Assembly (NCBI RefSeq): GCF_000621705.1
Contig: NZ_JHXO01000001.1
Coordinates: 620,001 to 684,000, forward strand
DNA from: Prolixibacter bellariivorans ATCC BAA-1284
GTDB taxonomy: Bacteria; Bacteroidota; Bacteroidia; Bacteroidales; Prolixibacteraceae
Length of the DNA: 64,000 nt
Direction: 5' to 3'
Shown: one piece after another, positions 18,372 to 46,674 of the stretch
Layout of the letters: the number at the start of each line of letters is the position of its first letter
Numbering within the stretch: the stretch's first letter is position 1
Notes under the pieces: generated by a model
What the model was told of the DNA's origin: nothing
What the model saw: only the letters and a program-made list of their open reading frames with translations
Databases searched by the model: none
Made by a program: the position numbers and the translations under genes

Positions 18372-19712
18372 ATGAGTTCAATGAAAGAAATGACCGCTGC
18401 AGTAGATATAGGTACTGCGAAAACGACTGCCATCATTGGTCGCTATACCATTGATAGGAAACTGGAGGTCGTTGGCTATGGAAGTACGGATACGCGTGGC
18501 GTCAGGAATGGTGTTGTGGTGAATATTGAAGAAGCCGGACAATCGATACGGGAAGCGGTAGATGCAGCTTGCCGTGGATTGAAACTGAAGGTTCGCGCGA
18601 TTTATGCCGGTTTGTCGGGACAGAAAATTCGTACCCGGTCGGCCAGTGGCTACCGGATGATTGATAAAGATGGTGAGGTAACCCGTGAGTTGGTTTCTTC
18701 GTTGTACGAAGAAGTTGGTCGTTACTCTTTGCAACCCGGAGAGAAGATTTTTCATGTGGTTCCGCAGGAATTCATTGTCGATGGCGAAATGGGAATCCAG
18801 CAACCGGTTGGTATGGCCGGAAACCGCATCGACGCTATGTTCAACCTGATCCTGGCGCCAGATTCGTACCGGATTAATCTTCGCCGAAGTGCGGAAAAGG
18901 CTGGTTTTGAGTTGGCTGGTGTGTTTGTCAATCCTTTTGTGCAGGGAGAGGCCTATCTCACCGAAGACGAGAAAGAAGCCGGCGTTGTATTGGTCGACTT
19001 TGGTGCCGGAACTACCGGTATTTCGGTTTACTATGAAAACCGGCTGCGTTTGGCTGCTGAACTTCCTTTTGGAGGTGCGGTGGTTACCCGTGATATCAAA
19101 GAAGGTTGTAACATCATTGCCCGGCATGCTGAACTCCTGAAAGTTCAGTTTGGACGTGCGTTGGCTGAACTGGCTCCTGACAATAAAGTGGTGCAAATTC
19201 CCGAATCGGACGGATGGCCAGCCAAAGAAGTGAGTTTCAAAAATCTCTCTCACATTATCCAGGCCCGCATGGAAGAAATTTTGGAAGGTATCAGTTTTCA
19301 GATTGAATCGACCGGGTTGATGCATAAACTGGGTGCCGGCATTGTCATTACCGGTGGTGGAGCCGGAATGGCTGAACTGGAAAAGCTGATTAGTTATAAA
19401 ACGGGTTTGGATGTTCGTTTTGGCCGACCAGTTATCCCGATGAAGGAGTTGTTGTTTGCCGAACAGGTGAATGGCCCGGAAGCAGCTAATATTCTTGGAT
19501 TGCTGGTGAAAGGACTCAAAAAGCGCGAAGGAATGCGGAATCCGGATACCATGGTGATCCATGAAAGCGAAGAAGAGGAAAGACCTCAAAATCCCCGCCA
19601 GCAACACAGGCCGAATGGAAACGGATTTAAAGGCGTATTCAACAATCTGTTCGAAAAAGCCCGGGATGGTCTTGGAAACCTGATCTCGGATGAGGATATG
19701 GAAATGAATTAG
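18372..19712 (+). CDS. ftsA: Actin-like Z-ring membrane tether FtsA
   Basis: A 446-residue actin/Hsp70-fold ATPase. It has the N-terminal phosphate-binding AAVDIGTAKTTAIIG (9-23), the FtsA-specific 1C domain, the DFGAGTTGISVY second phosphate loop and ITGGGAGM (adenosine loop). A charged linker (about 390-417) leads to a C-terminal amphipathic segment (about 418-446, with GVFNNLFEKARDGL and then ISDEDMEMN), the expected membrane-targeting helix. It lies directly before two ftsZ genes. The ending resembles the tail of the first FtsZ paralog. Confidence 0.95.
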   Translation: MSSMKEMTAAVDIGTAKTTAIIGRYTIDRKLEVVGYGSTDTRGVRNGVVVNIEEAGQSIREAVDAACRGLKLKVRAIYAGLSGQKIRTRSASGYRMIDKDGEVTRELVSSLYEEVGRYSLQPGEKIFHVVPQEFIVDGEMGIQQPVGMAGNRIDAMFNLILAPDSYRINLRRSAEKAGFELAGVFVNPFVQGEAYLTEDEKEAGVVLVDFGAGTTGISVYYENRLRLAAELPFGGAVVTRDIKEGCNIIARHAELLKVQFGRALAELAPDNKVVQIPESDGWPAKEVSFKNLSHIIQARMEEILEGISFQIESTGLMHKLGAGIVITGGGAGMAELEKLISYKTGLDVRFGRPVIPMKELLFAEQVNGPEAANILGLLVKGLKKREGMRNPDTMVIHESEEEERPQNPRQQHRPNGNGFKGVFNNLFEKARDGLGNLISDEDMEMN

Positions 19713-19745: not shown

Positions 19746-21095
19746 ATGTCATCAGAAGAAGATTTGCTCAATTTTGGTTTTAGACATAACCAGGATTCCA
19801 TTATCAAGGTCATTGGCGTTGGAGGCGGCGGTGGAAATGCGTTGAACTACATGTTCCGGAATGGAATCACCGGTGTCGATTTCATCATTTGTAACACCGA
19901 TGCCCAGGCGTTGGAGAATAGCCCTGTGCCTGTTAAGGTACAGTTGGGTGTTTCGCTAACCGAGGGGCGTGGTGCCGGCAATAAACCGGAACAAGGAGAA
20001 CAGGCTGCCATCGAAAATCTGGCGGATATCCGGAAGGTGTTGGCAAACAATACCCGGATGGTATTCATCACGGCCGGAATGGGAGGAGGTACCGGAACAG
20101 GCGCTGCACCCGTGATTGCTCAATTGGCTCGTGAAATGGATATTCTAACCATCGCGGTGGTGACACTTCCGTCGGAAAAAGAAGGTAAACGTCGTTTCGA
20201 TCAGGCAATGGTTGGGGTCGATAAGCTAAAGAAATTTGTCGATAGCTTATTGGTTATCAGTAACGAAAACCTGCATAAGATTTATGGTGACTTACCGGCG
20301 TCAAAAGCGTTTGCACAGGCCGACAATATATTGGCCACAGCTGTAAAGGGGTGTGCTGAAATTATTACCCTTCATGGTAATATCAACATTGACTTTGCCG
20401 ATGTGAACACCGTTATGCAGTCGAGTGGCGTATTTATTATGGGATCGGGGATTGCCGATGGCGAAGATCGGGCCATGCGCGCAGTCAAGGAAGCGTTGAT
20501 CTCGCCGCTTTTGGATAGCAATGATATTTATGGAACCGAAAATATACTGCTGAATATTACTTCGGGTGACGAAGAAATCCGGATGGGGGAAATTGGTCAG
20601 ATTATCGATTACCTTCAGGATGCAGCTGGTGATGATGCCAATATTATCTGGGGAAACGGACGTGACGAAAAGCTCGGCTCAAAGATTTGCGTGACGCTGA
20701 TTGCTACCGGTTTCAAGACCAATCCCAACAGGATACTGAATCCCGAAACGGAAACGACCAGGGTTTCGTTGCAGGATGAGAAAACCGAATCGGTTAAGAG
20801 TGAATTGAAACTTCCGCTCAAAGAGGAAAAACGTGTTGAGCTGGAGAGGGAGTTTTATGAGCCGGTAGGCAAGAAGAAGAATTATCTTGACGAAGATGAC
20901 CTTCAGGTAGAACATGAATACCAGAATGAGGAGACGACTTCATACCAAAATGAAAGCCGGCATAAAAAGAGTGAGGAGAAAAGACACCGAAGCAAAAAGC
21001 ACAAGGAAGAAGTAACTTCGGAGCCCATTACCAACTGGTTTGTCAAACAGTTCAATACCTTCTTCAGTGACAACGACATGGAGATGGATGAATAA
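19746..21095 (+). CDS. ftsZ: FtsZ paralog 1 (FtsA-like tail, no PAYxRR peptide)
   Basis: Tubulin-like GTPase of 449 residues. The GTP-binding signature GGGTGTG is at 113-119 and the T7 catalytic loop NIDFAD at 214-219, so both halves of the polymer active site look intact. After about residue 340 the tail is long and highly charged, sharing the heptad VSLQDEK with paralog 2. It lacks the PAYxRR-like C-terminal peptide seen in paralog 2; instead it ends (427-449) in ITNWFVKQFNTFF followed by SDNDMEM. The hydrophobic residues of that segment fall at i, i+3, i+4, i+8, i+11, an amphipathic-helix pattern like the FtsA membrane tether. The spacing is 33 bp from ftsA and 35 bp to paralog 2. It may anchor or modulate the ring (inference). 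Confidence 0.93.
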   Translation: MSSEEDLLNFGFRHNQDSIIKVIGVGGGGGNALNYMFRNGITGVDFIICNTDAQALENSPVPVKVQLGVSLTEGRGAGNKPEQGEQAAIENLADIRKVLANNTRMVFITAGMGGGTGTGAAPVIAQLAREMDILTIAVVTLPSEKEGKRRFDQAMVGVDKLKKFVDSLLVISNENLHKIYGDLPASKAFAQADNILATAVKGCAEIITLHGNINIDFADVNTVMQSSGVFIMGSGIADGEDRAMRAVKEALISPLLDSNDIYGTENILLNITSGDEEIRMGEIGQIIDYLQDAAGDDANIIWGNGRDEKLGSKICVTLIATGFKTNPNRILNPETETTRVSLQDEKTESVKSELKLPLKEEKRVELEREFYEPVGKKKNYLDEDDLQVEHEYQNEETTSYQNESRHKKSEEKRHRSKKHKEEVTSEPITNWFVKQFNTFFSDNDMEMDE

Positions 21096-21130: not shown

Positions 21131-22555
21131 ATGGCCGAACTGATGAATTTTGAATTACCAGAGAAGCAGAATTGCATCATTAAGGTAATAGGTGTTGGAG
21201 GAGGCGGTGGAAATGCGGTCAACCACATGTTCCGTCAGGGGATAAAAGATGTAGATTTTGCCGTTTGTAATACTGATGCGCAGGCGCTGATTAATAGTCC
21301 GGTGCCTACTCAGGTACAATTGGGTGCGTCGCTGACAGAGGGACGCGGAGCCGGCAATAAACCGGATGTTGGGCGCGATGCAGCCCGTGAAAATATACAG
21401 GAGGTAGAAGAAATTCTTTCTCATGGAACCAAAATGGTCTTTATAACGGCCGGAATGGGCGGCGGTACCGGAACCGGAGCTGCTCCTGTTATTGCCGAAG
21501 CAGCCCGAAAACTGAATCTGTTAACGGTGGGAATTGTGACGATTCCTTTCCGGAATGAGGGACGAAGAAGGATTGAGCAAGCCATCAAAGGAATCCGCGA
21601 GATGGAAGGCAATGTGGATTCGTTGCTGGTCATCAATAACGAACGAATCCGTGAAATGTACGGTGATTTTCCTATTTCGAAAGCCTTTTCGAAGGCCGAT
21701 GATGTGTTGGCCATTGCTGCCAAAGGGATTGCCGAGATTATCACGTATCACGGGTTCATCAACGTGGACTTTGAAGATGTAAAAACGGTGATGAAAGAGT
21801 CTGGCGTAGCCGTAATGGGCTCTTACCGGGCAACCGGCGACGAACGGGCTTTAAGAGCTGTTGAAGGCGCCTTAAATTCGCCGTTGCTGAATAATAATGA
21901 TATTCGGGGAGCCCGGAACATCCTGGTGAATATTACTTCAGGGGAAAAGCAGGAAGTGACCATGGATGAAATGAATCTCATCAACGAATATGTACAGGAA
22001 AAGGCGGGGAACTCTGCAGATTTGATTTATGGAGTGGCAATCGAGCCATCGCTCGAAGATTCCATTTCGGTGACGGTTATTGCAACCGGATTTAAAACAA
22101 GTTCGATTCCCGAGCTACGGACCGACAAGAAAGAGCCTGCCGAGAAGGTTTCTTTGCAGGATGAAAAGGATAGAGTACCCTCCAATATTTCTGGCCAGGT
22201 AGGCATGTCCGACGATGATAAGGTGGTAAGAAAATCGGGTACTCCCGTTTTTGAAGGGGAACCGGAAGATGAATTTGAACCCTTGTATGGTCCCGTACCA
22301 AAGGATAAGCATTCAGGCGGTAAACGCACAGAAGAGCAGAGGAAACAGGTTATGCAAGTCGATTTTTCAACCCTTTCGGATGATGAGGTTGAAAAAATCA
22401 GCAATGAGCCTGCTTATGTACGTCGGATGTTGCGCTTAGAGAACGAGAAGAAAAAGAAGGCTTCTGAAATATCCCGGCTTTCTCTGTCGGATAATAAAGA
22501 CGAGGGACCTAAACTTCGGCGTAATAACTCGTTTTTGCACGATAAAGCTGATTAG
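21131..22555 (+). CDS. ftsZ: FtsZ paralog 2 (canonical-type tail)
   Basis: Tubulin-like GTPase of 474 residues, longer than the typical 380-430. GGGTGTG is at 110-116 and the T7 loop NVDFED at 211-216. The disordered linker includes VSLQDEK, as in paralog 1. Near the C-terminus, PAYVRR (about 427-432) resembles the conserved peptide by which Bacteroidota FtsZ binds FtsA and other partners, followed by a 40-residue tail ending NNSFLHDKAD. These features make this the more likely housekeeping FtsZ. It is transcribed with ftsA and paralog 1 and precedes the YqeY-like gene by 24 bp. Confidence 0.94.
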   Translation: MAELMNFELPEKQNCIIKVIGVGGGGGNAVNHMFRQGIKDVDFAVCNTDAQALINSPVPTQVQLGASLTEGRGAGNKPDVGRDAARENIQEVEEILSHGTKMVFITAGMGGGTGTGAAPVIAEAARKLNLLTVGIVTIPFRNEGRRRIEQAIKGIREMEGNVDSLLVINNERIREMYGDFPISKAFSKADDVLAIAAKGIAEIITYHGFINVDFEDVKTVMKESGVAVMGSYRATGDERALRAVEGALNSPLLNNNDIRGARNILVNITSGEKQEVTMDEMNLINEYVQEKAGNSADLIYGVAIEPSLEDSISVTVIATGFKTSSIPELRTDKKEPAEKVSLQDEKDRVPSNISGQVGMSDDDKVVRKSGTPVFEGEPEDEFEPLYGPVPKDKHSGGKRTEEQRKQVMQVDFSTLSDDEVEKISNEPAYVRRMLRLENEKKKKASEISRLSLSDNKDEGPKLRRNNSFLHDKAD

Positions 22556-43533: not shown

Positions 43534-45027
43534 TTAAGCCGGCATATCTGGTAAAGTAAAACCTTCACGATAAGTATGCTTAATCAATTCATTGGAAAAT
43601 GCTTTAGCATTCATCGGATCGGTCCAGACTTTATTAAATGTCGGGTCGCCATCCTTAATCGAGAAAGCATCTTCGACACAAATCCGGAGATTTTCGTCAT
43701 CCGTAATATTGGTGAACTGCATGTTGGCACCATCCCATTCCAGTTCCTTGTTTAGTCCCTGCAAGCGAACGGCAAGTACACCCATCACAACCATTTCGTT
43801 GAATGGTCCTGCTTCGCTGAACGGTGAGGCCGGTTGAACCCGGTTTTCGGGACTTTCCTTGCAGGCCCGAATCCAATCCTGTTCGTGACCACCTTGCATG
43901 GCATTTTCAACCCTGCGAAGCGTTTTTGGAACATTCGGAGTTCTTCCTGAAAGCAACCACGGGTCTTTTCCGTAACAACCACAAATCAGCTTGTCTTTGG
44001 TTCCGTGGAAAATCACACCGCCACCGGCATCATTCATGTTCTTGCCTGCTGGCCAGCCTTCTGGTTTTTTGGGCTGAAGACCTCCGTCGTACCAGGTAAC
44101 GTCTACTTCCGGGAGATTCATTTTTACACCCTTTTGTTTTTCCCTTTCGGGGAATGTCAGGTTGACCATTTGCGCATTCGGCGCGCAATCAGTTAACAAC
44201 AGTGTGGAACTTCCCTGTGCTTTTGTCGGATATCCGAGTTTCAGCCCCATAAATACCGGGTGCAAAACATGACAGGCCATATCGCCTAATGCACCTGTTC
44301 CGAAATCCCACCATCCACGCCAGTTCCATGGCGTGTAAATCGGATTATATTCCCGGAAGGCAGCCGGCCCGATAAAAAGATCCCAGTCCAGTGTATCCGG
44401 AACAGGCATTACCTCTTTGGGACGGTTCAGGCCTTGTGGCCAAATCGGACGATCCGTGAAAGCTTCGACTTTGGTAATATCACCAATTTCTCCGTTCCAC
44501 ATCCATTCGCAGGCCTGGCGAACGCCTTCGCCTGATGAGCCCTGGTTTCCCATTTGGGTAGCCACCTGGTATTTATCGGCCAGTTTGGTCAGCAACCGTG
44601 ATTCATATACGGAGTGTGTCAACGGCTTCTGCACATAAACGTGTTTGCCTAGCGTCATGGCATGAGCAGCAGCGGCAGCATGTGAATGGTCGGCAGTGGC
44701 AACCAGAACAGCATCGAACTGATCGCCCATTTCATCGTACATCTTGCGCCAGTCTTTGTACTTTTTAGCGTTAGGATAGTGCTCGAAAACACGTTTGCTG
44801 TAACCCCAATCGACATCACAAAGAGCTACAATATTCTCGGTTTCCATATTTTTCAGGTTGGCAAACCCCATTCCGCCAATTCCTACAGCAGCAATGTTCA
44901 GTTTATCGCTTGGTGCTTTGTGACCAAGTCCAGCGATGGTGTTCGAGGGAAGGATGGTAATCCCTGCAGCAGCTGCAGCGGATGTTCCCAGAAATCTCCG
45001 ACGGGAGACATTATTCTTTCGATCCAT
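43534..45027 (-). CDS. Tat-exported Gfo/Idh/MocA-family oxidoreductase A
   Basis: A 497-residue NAD(P)-dependent dehydrogenase-like protein. The N-terminus has a twin-arginine signal (SRRRFLGTSAAAAAG), then the Rossmann motif AAVGIGGMG (about 46-54), a catalytic-region Lys in VYVQKPLTHS (the family's usual EKP is QKP here), and the C-terminal alpha/beta domain with WNWRGWWDFGTGALGDMACH. The Tat signal implies cofactor-loaded export to the periplasm. Substrate is probably a sugar or polyol; some relatives are GH109 N-acetylgalactosaminidases. It is a tandem paralog of the next gene upstream, from which it is separated by a terminator and its own promoter. Confidence 0.9.
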   Translation of the reverse strand: MDRKNNVSRRRFLGTSAAAAAGITILPSNTIAGLGHKAPSDKLNIAAVGIGGMGFANLKNMETENIVALCDVDWGYSKRVFEHYPNAKKYKDWRKMYDEMGDQFDAVLVATADHSHAAAAAHAMTLGKHVYVQKPLTHSVYESRLLTKLADKYQVATQMGNQGSSGEGVRQACEWMWNGEIGDITKVEAFTDRPIWPQGLNRPKEVMPVPDTLDWDLFIGPAAFREYNPIYTPWNWRGWWDFGTGALGDMACHVLHPVFMGLKLGYPTKAQGSSTLLLTDCAPNAQMVNLTFPEREKQKGVKMNLPEVDVTWYDGGLQPKKPEGWPAGKNMNDAGGGVIFHGTKDKLICGCYGKDPWLLSGRTPNVPKTLRRVENAMQGGHEQDWIRACKESPENRVQPASPFSEAGPFNEMVVMGVLAVRLQGLNKELEWDGANMQFTNITDDENLRICVEDAFSIKDGDPTFNKVWTDPMNAKAFSNELIKHTYREGFTLPDMPA

Positions 45028-45063
45028 AAATCTGGTTAATTAATTGGTTATAAATAGGATTTC

Positions 45064-45095
45064 TAAATTTATTTTTATTTACCCGTATCTACAAA
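45064..45095 (-). promoter_or_regulatory. Promoter of oxidoreductase A
   Basis: On the minus strand TTTG (complement of 45092-45095), 20 bp, then TAAATTTA (45064-45071). The -7 element ends about 37 bp before the start codon, the same offset as in the tandem paralog. Confidence 0.5.
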
Positions 45096-45114
45096 GATTT
45101 TATATTGTATTTGA

Positions 45115-45154
45115 TACAAAAAAGAGCGGCTGCCTCATTTTTGAGACAACCGCT
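45115..45154 (-). terminator. Terminator after oxidoreductase B
   Basis: In the minus-strand RNA a 13-bp stem (45125-45137 with 45142-45154) pairs fully if two G-U pairs are allowed, and is followed by a U-rich tail (TTTTTTG). It separates the two oxidoreductase genes. Confidence 0.82.
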
Positions 45155-45180
45155 TCTATAAAAATGGATCTATTGCTTAT

Positions 45181-46674
45181 TTAAATTTGTTGCCAACCTT
45201 CGCGATAATGGTGGCGAATCCACTCTTCTGCCGCTTTTTTGGCATTCATGGTGTCGTACTTGGTGTCAAATTTCGGATCACCGTCTACTACCTCAAACTT
45301 ATCAGAGGTTACCACACGAATCTGATCGTTGTCGCCAATGTTCGTGAACTGCATGTTGGCGCCATCCCACAACAGGCGACGTTTCAGATCCTGCAAGCGA
45401 ACCGCCAGTACCCCCATGACGACCATTTCGTTCAATGGACCGGAATAATCGAAATTAGAAGAAGCTTCCATGCGGTTGCTCTTGTCTTCCTTACAGGCAC
45501 GAATCCAGTCTTGTTCATGACCACCTTCCATGGCTTTTGGGATACGACGCAGCGTTTCTGCCGGGCGTTTGAAGTCTTCCATTTTCGTTGTTGGAAGCAA
45601 CTGCGGATTACGGGCGTAGGTACCGCACATAATTTTTCCTTTCGAACCAACAAAGATGACGCCTCCGCCCCAGTCACCCATCATTTCACCGTCAACCAGC
45701 TCTTCCGGACGTTCCGGGAGTAAACCACCGTCGTACCAGGTTACTTTTACTGCCGGCATAGCCACTTTGGGTAGATTATCCCTTTCGGGGAACCAATAGG
45801 TTACTTTTTGTGCTTCGGGAGCTGATTCAGTATTAATCTGAGTGGAACTACCTTCTACGGCAGTCGGATATTTCAGTTTGAGTGCTTTGAACACGGGATC
45901 GAGTATATGACAGGCCATATCGCCCAAGGCACCTGTTCCGAAATCCCACCATCCACGCCAGTTCCAAGGTGTGTAAATGGGGTTATACGGACGGTAAGCT
46001 GCCGGGCCGAGGAAGAGATCCCAATCGAGGGTTCTGGGTACGCGAACTTTTTCTGTGGGACGCTCAAGTCCTTGCGGCCAAATCGGACGGTTGGTCCATG
46101 CATGTACTTCTTTGATTTCGCCGATGGTTCCGGCCCAAATCCATTCGCAAATATCACGAATGCCGTCACCTGAGTTTCCCTGGTTTCCCATCTGGGTGGC
46201 AACGCCCATTTCGTTAGCTGTATTGGTCAGCAGGCGTGATTCGTATACAGAATGAGTCAGAGGCTTTTGAACATACACATGCTTACCCTGCTTCATAGCG
46301 GAATAGGCTGCCAGTGCGTGCACATGATCGGGTGTGGCTACCAATACAGCATCAATATCCTTCTGCTTGTCCAGTAACTCACGGAAATCCTTATAACGTA
46401 CAGCATTGGGATAGTCGTTGAAGGTTTTGCCGGCATATTTCCAGTCAACATCGGCCAGCGCAACAATATTTTCCGTACTCATATTCTTCAGGTTGGTACG
46501 CCCCATTCCACCCACACCGATTCCGGCAATGTTCAGTTTGTCGCTGGGAGCTTTGTGCCCTAATCCGGCAATGGTATTACTTGGAAGAATGGTAAATCCT
46601 GCAGCGGCCGCTGCAGACGTGCCGAGAAAAGCACGTCGGGAAACGTTGCTTTGGTTCTTTTTAGCTTTGTTCAT
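45181..46674 (-). CDS. Tat-exported Gfo/Idh/MocA-family oxidoreductase B
   Basis: A 497-residue paralog of the downstream gene, equal in length. The twin-arginine signal (SRRAFLGTSAAAAAG) and the next 25 residues are nearly identical to A (ILPSNTIAGLGHKAPSDKLN). Rossmann motif GIGVGGMG, VYVQKPLTHSVYESRLLT and WNWRGWWDFGTGALGDMACH are conserved, while the substrate half (about 300-450) diverges more. This indicates duplication and specialisation for related sugars, or a two-step pathway. It has its own promoter and terminator, so the pair can be regulated separately. Confidence 0.9.
   Translation of the reverse strand: MNKAKKNQSNVSRRAFLGTSAAAAAGFTILPSNTIAGLGHKAPSDKLNIAGIGVGGMGRTNLKNMSTENIVALADVDWKYAGKTFNDYPNAVRYKDFRELLDKQKDIDAVLVATPDHVHALAAYSAMKQGKHVYVQKPLTHSVYESRLLTNTANEMGVATQMGNQGNSGDGIRDICEWIWAGTIGEIKEVHAWTNRPIWPQGLERPTEKVRVPRTLDWDLFLGPAAYRPYNPIYTPWNWRGWWDFGTGALGDMACHILDPVFKALKLKYPTAVEGSSTQINTESAPEAQKVTYWFPERDNLPKVAMPAVKVTWYDGGLLPERPEELVDGEMMGDWGGGVIFVGSKGKIMCGTYARNPQLLPTTKMEDFKRPAETLRRIPKAMEGGHEQDWIRACKEDKSNRMEASSNFDYSGPLNEMVVMGVLAVRLQDLKRRLLWDGANMQFTNIGDNDQIRVVTSDKFEVVDGDPKFDTKYDTMNAKKAAEEWIRHHYREGWQQI

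Follow-up and report, generated by a model that had tools for sequence, protein, structure and literature searches.

An FtsA-like conserved tail on the upstream FtsZ of a tandem pair in Prolixibacter bellariivorans and the family Prolixibacteraceae

In walled bacteria, FtsZ is usually described as dependent on an adaptor (e.g., FtsA, ZipA, or SepF); FtsA is a known membrane binder, PAYxRR is the established FtsA-binding peptide of FtsZ, and plastids are not known to have FtsA. Other arrangements have also been described. The FtsZ1 of land-plant chloroplasts has a membrane-binding C-terminus and does not bind ARC6, which is bound by FtsZ2 (PMC11285052). Odinarchaeota have an FtsZ1 that is placed on the membrane by its own N-terminal amphipathic helix and an FtsZ2 that binds SepF (PMC12583498), and Mycoplasma FtsZ binds the membrane directly through its N- or C-terminus (Dutta et al. 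2025, as cited in PMC12583498). Artificial fusions of FtsZ with the targeting sequence of Escherichia coli FtsA bind membranes and treadmill on bilayers in vitro, at 23 nm/s compared with 35 nm/s for a weaker MinD anchor (PMC7320174).

The window analyzed here is a stretch of 64,000 nucleotides from Prolixibacter bellariivorans ATCC BAA-1284 containing two adjacent ftsZ genes, of which the first (ftsZ-1) encodes a protein ending in an FtsA-like tail and the second (ftsZ-2) a protein with the usual FtsA-binding peptide. If the tail binds lipid, the pair would resemble that of chloroplasts, where one paralog binds the membrane at its C-terminus and the other sits on the membrane protein ARC6; the chloroplast pair differs in belonging to a plastid and in the source of its membrane motif, which is the former C-terminal motif (PMC11285052); the Prolixibacter tail instead resembles that of FtsA. 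Odinarchaeota likewise combine a self-anchored paralog with one held through an adaptor, but are archaea, use an N-terminal helix, and have SepF as adaptor instead of FtsA (PMC12583498). Mycoplasma offers a bacterial case of direct membrane binding, although in wall-less bacteria (cited in PMC12583498). In the FtsZ chimeras, an FtsA-type targeting sequence anchors the filaments and FtsA itself is dispensed with; these chimeras are laboratory constructs, whereas Prolixibacter FtsZ-1 would be a natural one, present beside a normal FtsZ (PMC7320174). No paper on the FtsZ of Prolixibacteraceae, and no pair of self-anchored and adaptor-bound FtsZs in a walled, FtsA-bearing bacterium, was found in a literature search that covered few subscription journals and no preprints; two papers that the search brought up (PMC9871819, PMC4164004) showed nothing on such a pair in the passages covered.

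The ftsA-ftsZ-1-ftsZ-2 locus and the ends of its proteins

Prolixibacter bellariivorans (family Prolixibacteraceae; genome size 5.15 Mb) carries ftsA, ftsZ-1, and ftsZ-2 consecutively and in that order, within an apparent division-and-wall cluster whose genes were named by eye (Table 1). Apparent wall-synthesis genes, also recognized by eye, adjoin ftsZ, and the organism is presumably a walled bacterium bearing FtsA. Genome-wide searches gave a single SHS2_FTSA match (one FtsA) in the P. bellariivorans genome, no match to SepF, and no tubulin/FtsZ matches other than FtsZ-1 and FtsZ-2, both of which score above the curated FtsZ cut-off.

Table 1. Positions of the division genes and their C-terminal features in the window.
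Feature	Position	Strand	Details and basis
ftsA	18372..19712	+	446 aa; TIGR01174 304 bits, cut-off 176
FtsA C-terminal segment and acidic end, GFKGVFNNLFEKARDGLGNLISDEDMEMN, presumed membrane-targeting sequence	19623..19709	+	translation, amphipathicity, column pattern
ftsZ-1, upstream FtsZ paralog	19746..21095	+	449 aa; TIGR00065 352 bits, cut-off 295; fold
FtsZ-1 disordered linker, fast evolving	20736..21017	+	residues 331-424; codon differences; pLDDT about 35-50
FtsZ-1 conserved tail	21018..21092	+	residues 425-449; codon differences, column conservation, FtsA-likeness versus shuffles
FtsZ-1 predicted membrane-targeting segment, ITNWFVKQFNTFF	21027..21065	+	residues 428-440; translation, prediction
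FtsZ-1 SDNDMEM	21066..21086	+	residues 441-447, then DE and stop; acidic end 441-449
ftsZ-2, canonical downstream paralog	21131..22555	+	TIGR00065 369 bits; translation
FtsZ-2 FtsA-binding peptide core, PAYVRR	22409..22426	+	sequence

The preliminary description of this DNA had stated that FtsZ-1 lacks the FtsA-binding peptide found in FtsZ-2, that it ends instead with ITNWFVKQFNTFF followed by SDNDMEM, and that FtsA just upstream has a similar end with SDEDMEM. The translations and motif counts bear this out. FtsZ-2 contains NEPAYVRR and has the C-terminus NNSFLHDKAD, neither of which occurs in FtsZ-1; the C-terminal sequence of FtsZ-1 reads EPITNWFVKQFNTFFSDNDMEMDE in translation, with the hydrophobic segment and SDNDMEM at residues 428-447, and its SDNDMEM shares six of seven residues with the SDEDMEM of FtsA, which ends in GFKGVFNNLFEKARDGLGNLISDEDMEMN. 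At the DNA level, the best local alignment at this point covers 15 bases with 12 identities, and there is therefore no sign of recent copying between ftsA and ftsZ-1.

The same difference between upstream and downstream copies recurs throughout the family. FtsZ matches were obtained in 58 of the 60 Prolixibacteraceae genomes sampled, and the loci of these 58, from 23 genera, were read. In 57 of them ftsA is followed by two ftsZ genes; in the remaining one the contig breaks off behind the first ftsZ. A regular expression for the FtsA-binding peptide matches 44 of 55 single FtsZs (the remaining 11 show a looser PA[FY]xR by eye), and the motif is found in 47 of the 49 downstream Prolixibacteraceae copies with a closed frame, the exceptions being a broken frame (L008) and a copy from which the motif is absent (L118). 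Overall, the motif is retained by 59 of the 63 last copies with a closed frame. The expression matches just two of 57 upstream copies in the family, both times in the linker, 52 residues before the C-terminus, and none of 18 upstream copies from other families. The Prolixibacteraceae pair consists of two FtsZ paralogs with an adaptor-binding C-terminal peptide on one only; judged by its domain, FtsZ-1 is still an FtsZ, and the loss of the peptide is a variant feature. The GGGTGTG signature and the T7-loop catalytic residues are intact in all 57 upstream copies checked (FtsZ-1 included).

Elsewhere in the window, two adjoining genes on the minus strand (43534-46674) encode 497-residue proteins that resemble each other, begin with a twin-arginine-like sequence, and appear oxidoreductase-like by eye. 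This gene pair looks like a tandem duplication.

Conservation of the tail and its likeness to FtsA

The preliminary description had named a lack of conservation in orthologs among the grounds on which its reading would fall; the tail is strongly conserved. The sequence W[FLI] lies near the C-terminus in 56 of 57 upstream copies (49 WF, 7 WL), mostly as W[FL]x[RK]QF followed by acids, and of these 56 copies, 55 have R or K at +3, 36 have Q at +4, and 50 have F at +5. The one other copy (G013) has a different hydrophobic end. These counts leave aside the locus in which the gene is broken in the assembly (L112, G015), one fragment of which has the same kind of tail at its end, and include a copy that stops at a contig end and whose tail is possibly cut (L103, G050). 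W431, F436, and F440 are each conserved in at least 90% of 53 aligned sequences, a level that no other column after 323 reaches.

Codon differences, summed over the comparisons of the window genome with each of two congeners, separate the tail from the linker preceding it. The folded domain has 283 synonymous-only and 22 nonsynonymous differences and the linker 48 and 72, while the tail has 13 synonymous-only and 2 nonsynonymous differences and is therefore under selection. A relaxed or decaying end on a functionless spare gene copy would be in keeping with the long branches of several upstream copies from other families, but it is highly improbable given this synonymous-only excess in the tail, on which it was rejected, together with the intact GTPase motifs and the presence of the upstream copy in 58 of 58 genomes of 23 genera (broken in one assembly).

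The resemblance of the tail to FtsA was measured by aligning 37 of 75 upstream tails (every third family row and all rows from other families) with 40 sequences sampled from each class and comparing the scores with those of each tail's own shuffles. Mean z was 2.86 with FtsA from single-FtsZ genomes and 3.66 with FtsA from Prolixibacteraceae, as opposed to 0.53 with ordinary FtsZ ends and 0.29 with FtsA-binding peptides; z of 2 or more was reached by 25 and 30 of the 37 tails with the two FtsA sets, by 6 with FtsZ ends, and by 2 with the FtsA-binding peptide. The nearest class was an FtsA set for 36 of the 37. These comparisons bear on a possible descent of the tail from the FtsA-binding peptide by degeneration, in which PAYxRR would have drifted to WFxRQF and would still bind FtsA weakly. 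Both motifs share an aromatic-x-R/K arrangement, EP precedes the tail in Prolixibacter and in g15 (SEPITNWFVKQF versus NEPAYVRRML), and the membrane motif of plant FtsZ1 arose where the old C-terminal core got shorter (PMC11285052). Nevertheless, the mean z of 0.29, on which this candidate was rejected, and a proline at the matching place in just 7 of 56 aligned Prolixibacteraceae tails make such drift very unlikely.

The likeness to FtsA extends to the column layout. When anchored on the last hydrophobic pair (-2, -1), FtsZ-1 tails and FtsA tails (the latter from 26 genomes of the order with a single FtsZ) are both hydrophobic at -9 and -5 and acidic at 0, +1, and +3, with mostly M, I, or L at +6. 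By shuffle alignments and column pattern, the FtsZ-1 tail is laid out in sequence like the C-termini of FtsA proteins from its own order. The presumed amphipathic segment, the acids, and M/I/L occupy the columns that they have in the FtsA membrane-targeting sequence, but the tail sits on FtsZ and not on the actin-like adaptor. A strict regular expression for this end, composed after the tails had been seen, matches 35 of 57 Prolixibacteraceae upstream copies, 3 of 18 other upstream copies, 0.6% of shuffled tails, and none of 118 downstream or single FtsZs; among FtsA proteins it matches 12 of 57 in Prolixibacteraceae and 7/26, 0/28, and 0/14 in the other groups. The close likeness of FtsZ-1 and FtsA tails is the same in four Prolixibacter genomes (the window's and that of Prolixibacter denitrificans, G006, among them); beyond the genus only the pattern survives, namely a hydrophobic pair, acids, and often M/I/L six residues later.

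A tail of this kind fits membrane binding and the binding of a shared partner alike, as far as its sequence goes. It could be a new protein-docking peptide, recognizing not lipid but FtsA itself or a partner or regulator that also recognizes the FtsA tail. The near-invariant W, the spaced F, and the acidic end shared with FtsA, M/I/L at +6 included, are more specific than lipid binding alone needs. FtsA and FtsZ-1 tails of the same genus are closer than when genera are permuted, at z 2.93 (p 0.003), and the control comparisons made with FtsZ-2 ends give z -0.46 and -1.19. Composition-preserving shuffles themselves give a z of 1.47 on average, 2 of 40 attain the observed value, and the likeness is due in part to amino-acid composition. 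The exact tail residues, however, vary between families while the hydrophobic segment and the acids are kept, as lipid binding would permit, and FtsA, which has an equal layout, is established as a membrane binder. A docking peptide is accordingly regarded as unlikely, though a more serious contender than the drifted peptide or the decaying gene end.

Distribution of tailed copies and their possible origin

In a sample of the order, a match at E 1e-50 was obtained in 285 of 294 genomes, at least 19 of which have more than one match (four of these genomes being Prolixibacteraceae); at most five candidates were scored per genome, and extra copies may be missed. Loci were read for 14 of the 15 multi-FtsZ genomes outside Prolixibacteraceae, the remaining one (G117) being split over contigs. 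Upstream copies that have no FtsA-binding peptide and end in a hydrophobic, mostly acid-tipped segment occur in families f16, f23, f32, f99, and f132, and in f113 the upstream copy has a hydrophobic stretch away from the very end. Tandem pairs with such an upstream end are also present in two of four named Rikenellaceae records and in one Marinifilaceae record. Two matches were found in 2 of 61 genomes of the family of one of these named records, and the tandem pair is therefore rare in that family. No tandem pair was found among the 118 genomes of a phylum sample drawn from outside the order.

Several of these loci have peculiarities of their own. Four (L120, L157, L158, and L159; f32 and f99) have three tandem ftsZ genes after ftsA, of which the third is canonical and the first two are without the FtsA-binding peptide and carry two different hydrophobic tails, the second being GWIQTTFDSLF-like. 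In f132 (L161, L162, and L163), FtsA is very divergent (65-78 bits to the FtsA of the window), with short basic hydrophobic ends, and the FtsZ-2 open frame stops directly past the FtsA-binding peptide. At locus L164 (G359, f119) about 500 bases separate the two ftsZ genes, both of which have unusual ends, and neither shows a clear FtsA-binding peptide; L126 (G017) is a third, distant FtsZ-like protein (open frame of 374 aa, 37% identity) on a contig other than that of the division cluster.

Phylogenetic analysis used a first tree of 203 of 204 rows (the fragment L112_2of3 omitted) and a second of 93 of the 204 (14 Prolixibacteraceae genomes, all single-FtsZ rows of the order, and 8 of 29 phylum rows, without f119). 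The 14 Prolixibacteraceae upstream copies form one clade in this second, quick tree (SH-aLRT 100) and the 14 downstream copies another (97), which suggests that the pair is older than the family. Approximately unbiased (AU) tests were run on 91 of the second tree's 93 rows, two very long f16 rows having been dropped. Joining the Prolixibacteraceae copies as one group (28 rows) was not rejected (AU p 0.868), nor was constraining 30 upstream copies to one clade (AU p 0.85), and one or several origins are both compatible with the data. In both AU tests the constrained trees outscored the short free search, and the tree search is therefore not exhaustive.

How an FtsZ might acquire an FtsA-like end is a more tentative matter. 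One possible though doubtful account is that FtsZ-1 is a natural FtsZ::FtsA-tail chimera born of a one-step tandem duplication, possibly repeated within the order. The duplicated unit would begin at the 3' end of ftsA and take in ftsZ, so that the linker of the first ftsZ would fuse to the FtsA tail preceding the second, and each such duplication would yield a self-anchoring FtsZ beside an FtsA-dependent one. Duplication from the end of ftsA would account for the upstream position of the tailed copies and for the FtsA-binding peptide that the last copy mostly has (59/63). In a young Rikenellaceae pair with FtsZs 68% identical, the DNA before ftsZ-2 is collinear with the ftsA end plus the spacer before ftsZ-1 (one locus; alignment score 27, mononucleotide-shuffle mean 19.3, p 0.034). 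Matching of tails with the FtsA of their own family is better than in 4976 of 5040 permutations (64 are as good), a result driven by Rikenellaceae and f16, two families picked after being seen. At the protein level, the FtsZ-1 tails of the Rikenellaceae locus and its sister have no significantly greater likeness to their own FtsA (p 0.12 and 0.16); 20 and 48 of 125 other FtsA tails are as good as the own FtsA at the Rikenellaceae loci, as are 20 of 124 in f16. Within Prolixibacteraceae, a search for recent DNA copying from ftsA to ftsZ-1 found own-genome similarity at chance (mean rank fraction 0.49 over tandem loci). The case for a one-step duplication is no more than suggestive.

Two proposed routes of membrane attachment

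The reading favored here is that FtsZ-1 is probably an active paralog that carries an FtsA-type tail in place of the conserved C-terminal peptide and anchors itself, while FtsZ-2 docks on FtsA. Since the GTPase signature and the T7 loop are kept, FtsZ-1 should polymerize into filaments through its intact GTPase domain. These filaments would be tethered straight to the inner membrane by the aromatic-rich amphipathic segment and acidic end, with the segment folding as a helix on lipid and FtsZ-1 not binding FtsA; FtsZ-2 filaments would be tethered via FtsA through the FtsA-binding peptide. Were the two FtsZs to co-assemble, the ring, or mixed filaments, would be attached to the membrane by two routes. 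More speculatively, the dwell time of a mixed ring, or its speed, could be governed by the self-anchored partner, as the FtsZ-FtsA-mts chimera treadmills more slowly than the MinD-anchored one.

Amphipathicity and predicted structure give a mixed picture of this self-anchoring. Median best hydrophobic moments of the upstream tails are 0.67 in Prolixibacteraceae and 0.58 in other families, compared with 0.58-0.74 for FtsA groups, 0.38 for downstream FtsZ ends, and 0.36 for single FtsZ ends. The shuffle p of the window's FtsZ-1 tail is 0.063 over the last 25 residues and 0.025 for the 13-mer chosen in the preliminary description. Counted against self-anchoring are the median best moments of tails (0.64), FtsA-binding peptides (0.49), and linker stretches (0.38), the proportion of tails with shuffle p of 0.05 or less (27 of 57 upstream tails in Prolixibacteraceae and 1 of 18 from other families), and the charge of the predicted tail helix, whose few positive charges and trailing acids set it apart from basic targeting helices. 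Among FtsA groups, shuffle p of 0.05 or less was obtained for 3/57 (Prolixibacteraceae), 12/26, 18/28, and 8/14, and the median net charge of the FtsA tails of Prolixibacteraceae is 0, the same as that of FtsZ-1 tails. Helical periodicity of the FtsZ-tail columns peaks at 90-102 degrees and is not significant (p 0.27, 0.09, and 0.37); for FtsA columns of single-FtsZ genomes, p is 0.003. AlphaFold2 (53 sequences) predicts the FtsZ domain with a mean pLDDT of about 89 over residues 21-320, a disordered linker, and a mostly disordered C-terminus with a lone 5-residue helix at 432-436 (pLDDT about 50, low confidence), which is compatible with a helix that folds on the membrane and proof of nothing. 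Following a disordered linker, the C-terminal segment is as in FtsA in its position and group-level moment; single-tail shuffles and periodicity are weak, and single FtsZ-1-type tails are only marginally amphipathic. The case for the tail rests on its conservation (W[FLI] in 56/57) more than on the amphipathicity of single tails.

The preliminary description had also presented the division of labor between a self-anchored and an FtsA-bound FtsZ as new. The absence of the peptide and the FtsA-like tail on which it built that interpretation stand; novelty in principle does not, as such a division is already described for land-plant chloroplasts (PMC11285052) and Odinarchaeota (PMC12583498). Pairs of self-anchored and adaptor-bound FtsZs are known, and what is new is the presumably walled, FtsA-bearing host, the FtsA-like tail, and its family-wide conservation. 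A free-living bacterial family appears to have an additional FtsZ that reproduces the anchor of the adaptor itself, as a natural equivalent of the FtsZ-mts chimeras employed in reconstitution. Together with chloroplasts and Odinarchaeota, this suggests that FtsZ pairs can repeatedly settle as one self-anchored and one adaptor-bound member, and the Prolixibacteraceae pair would be a ready test of roles of FtsA other than tethering.
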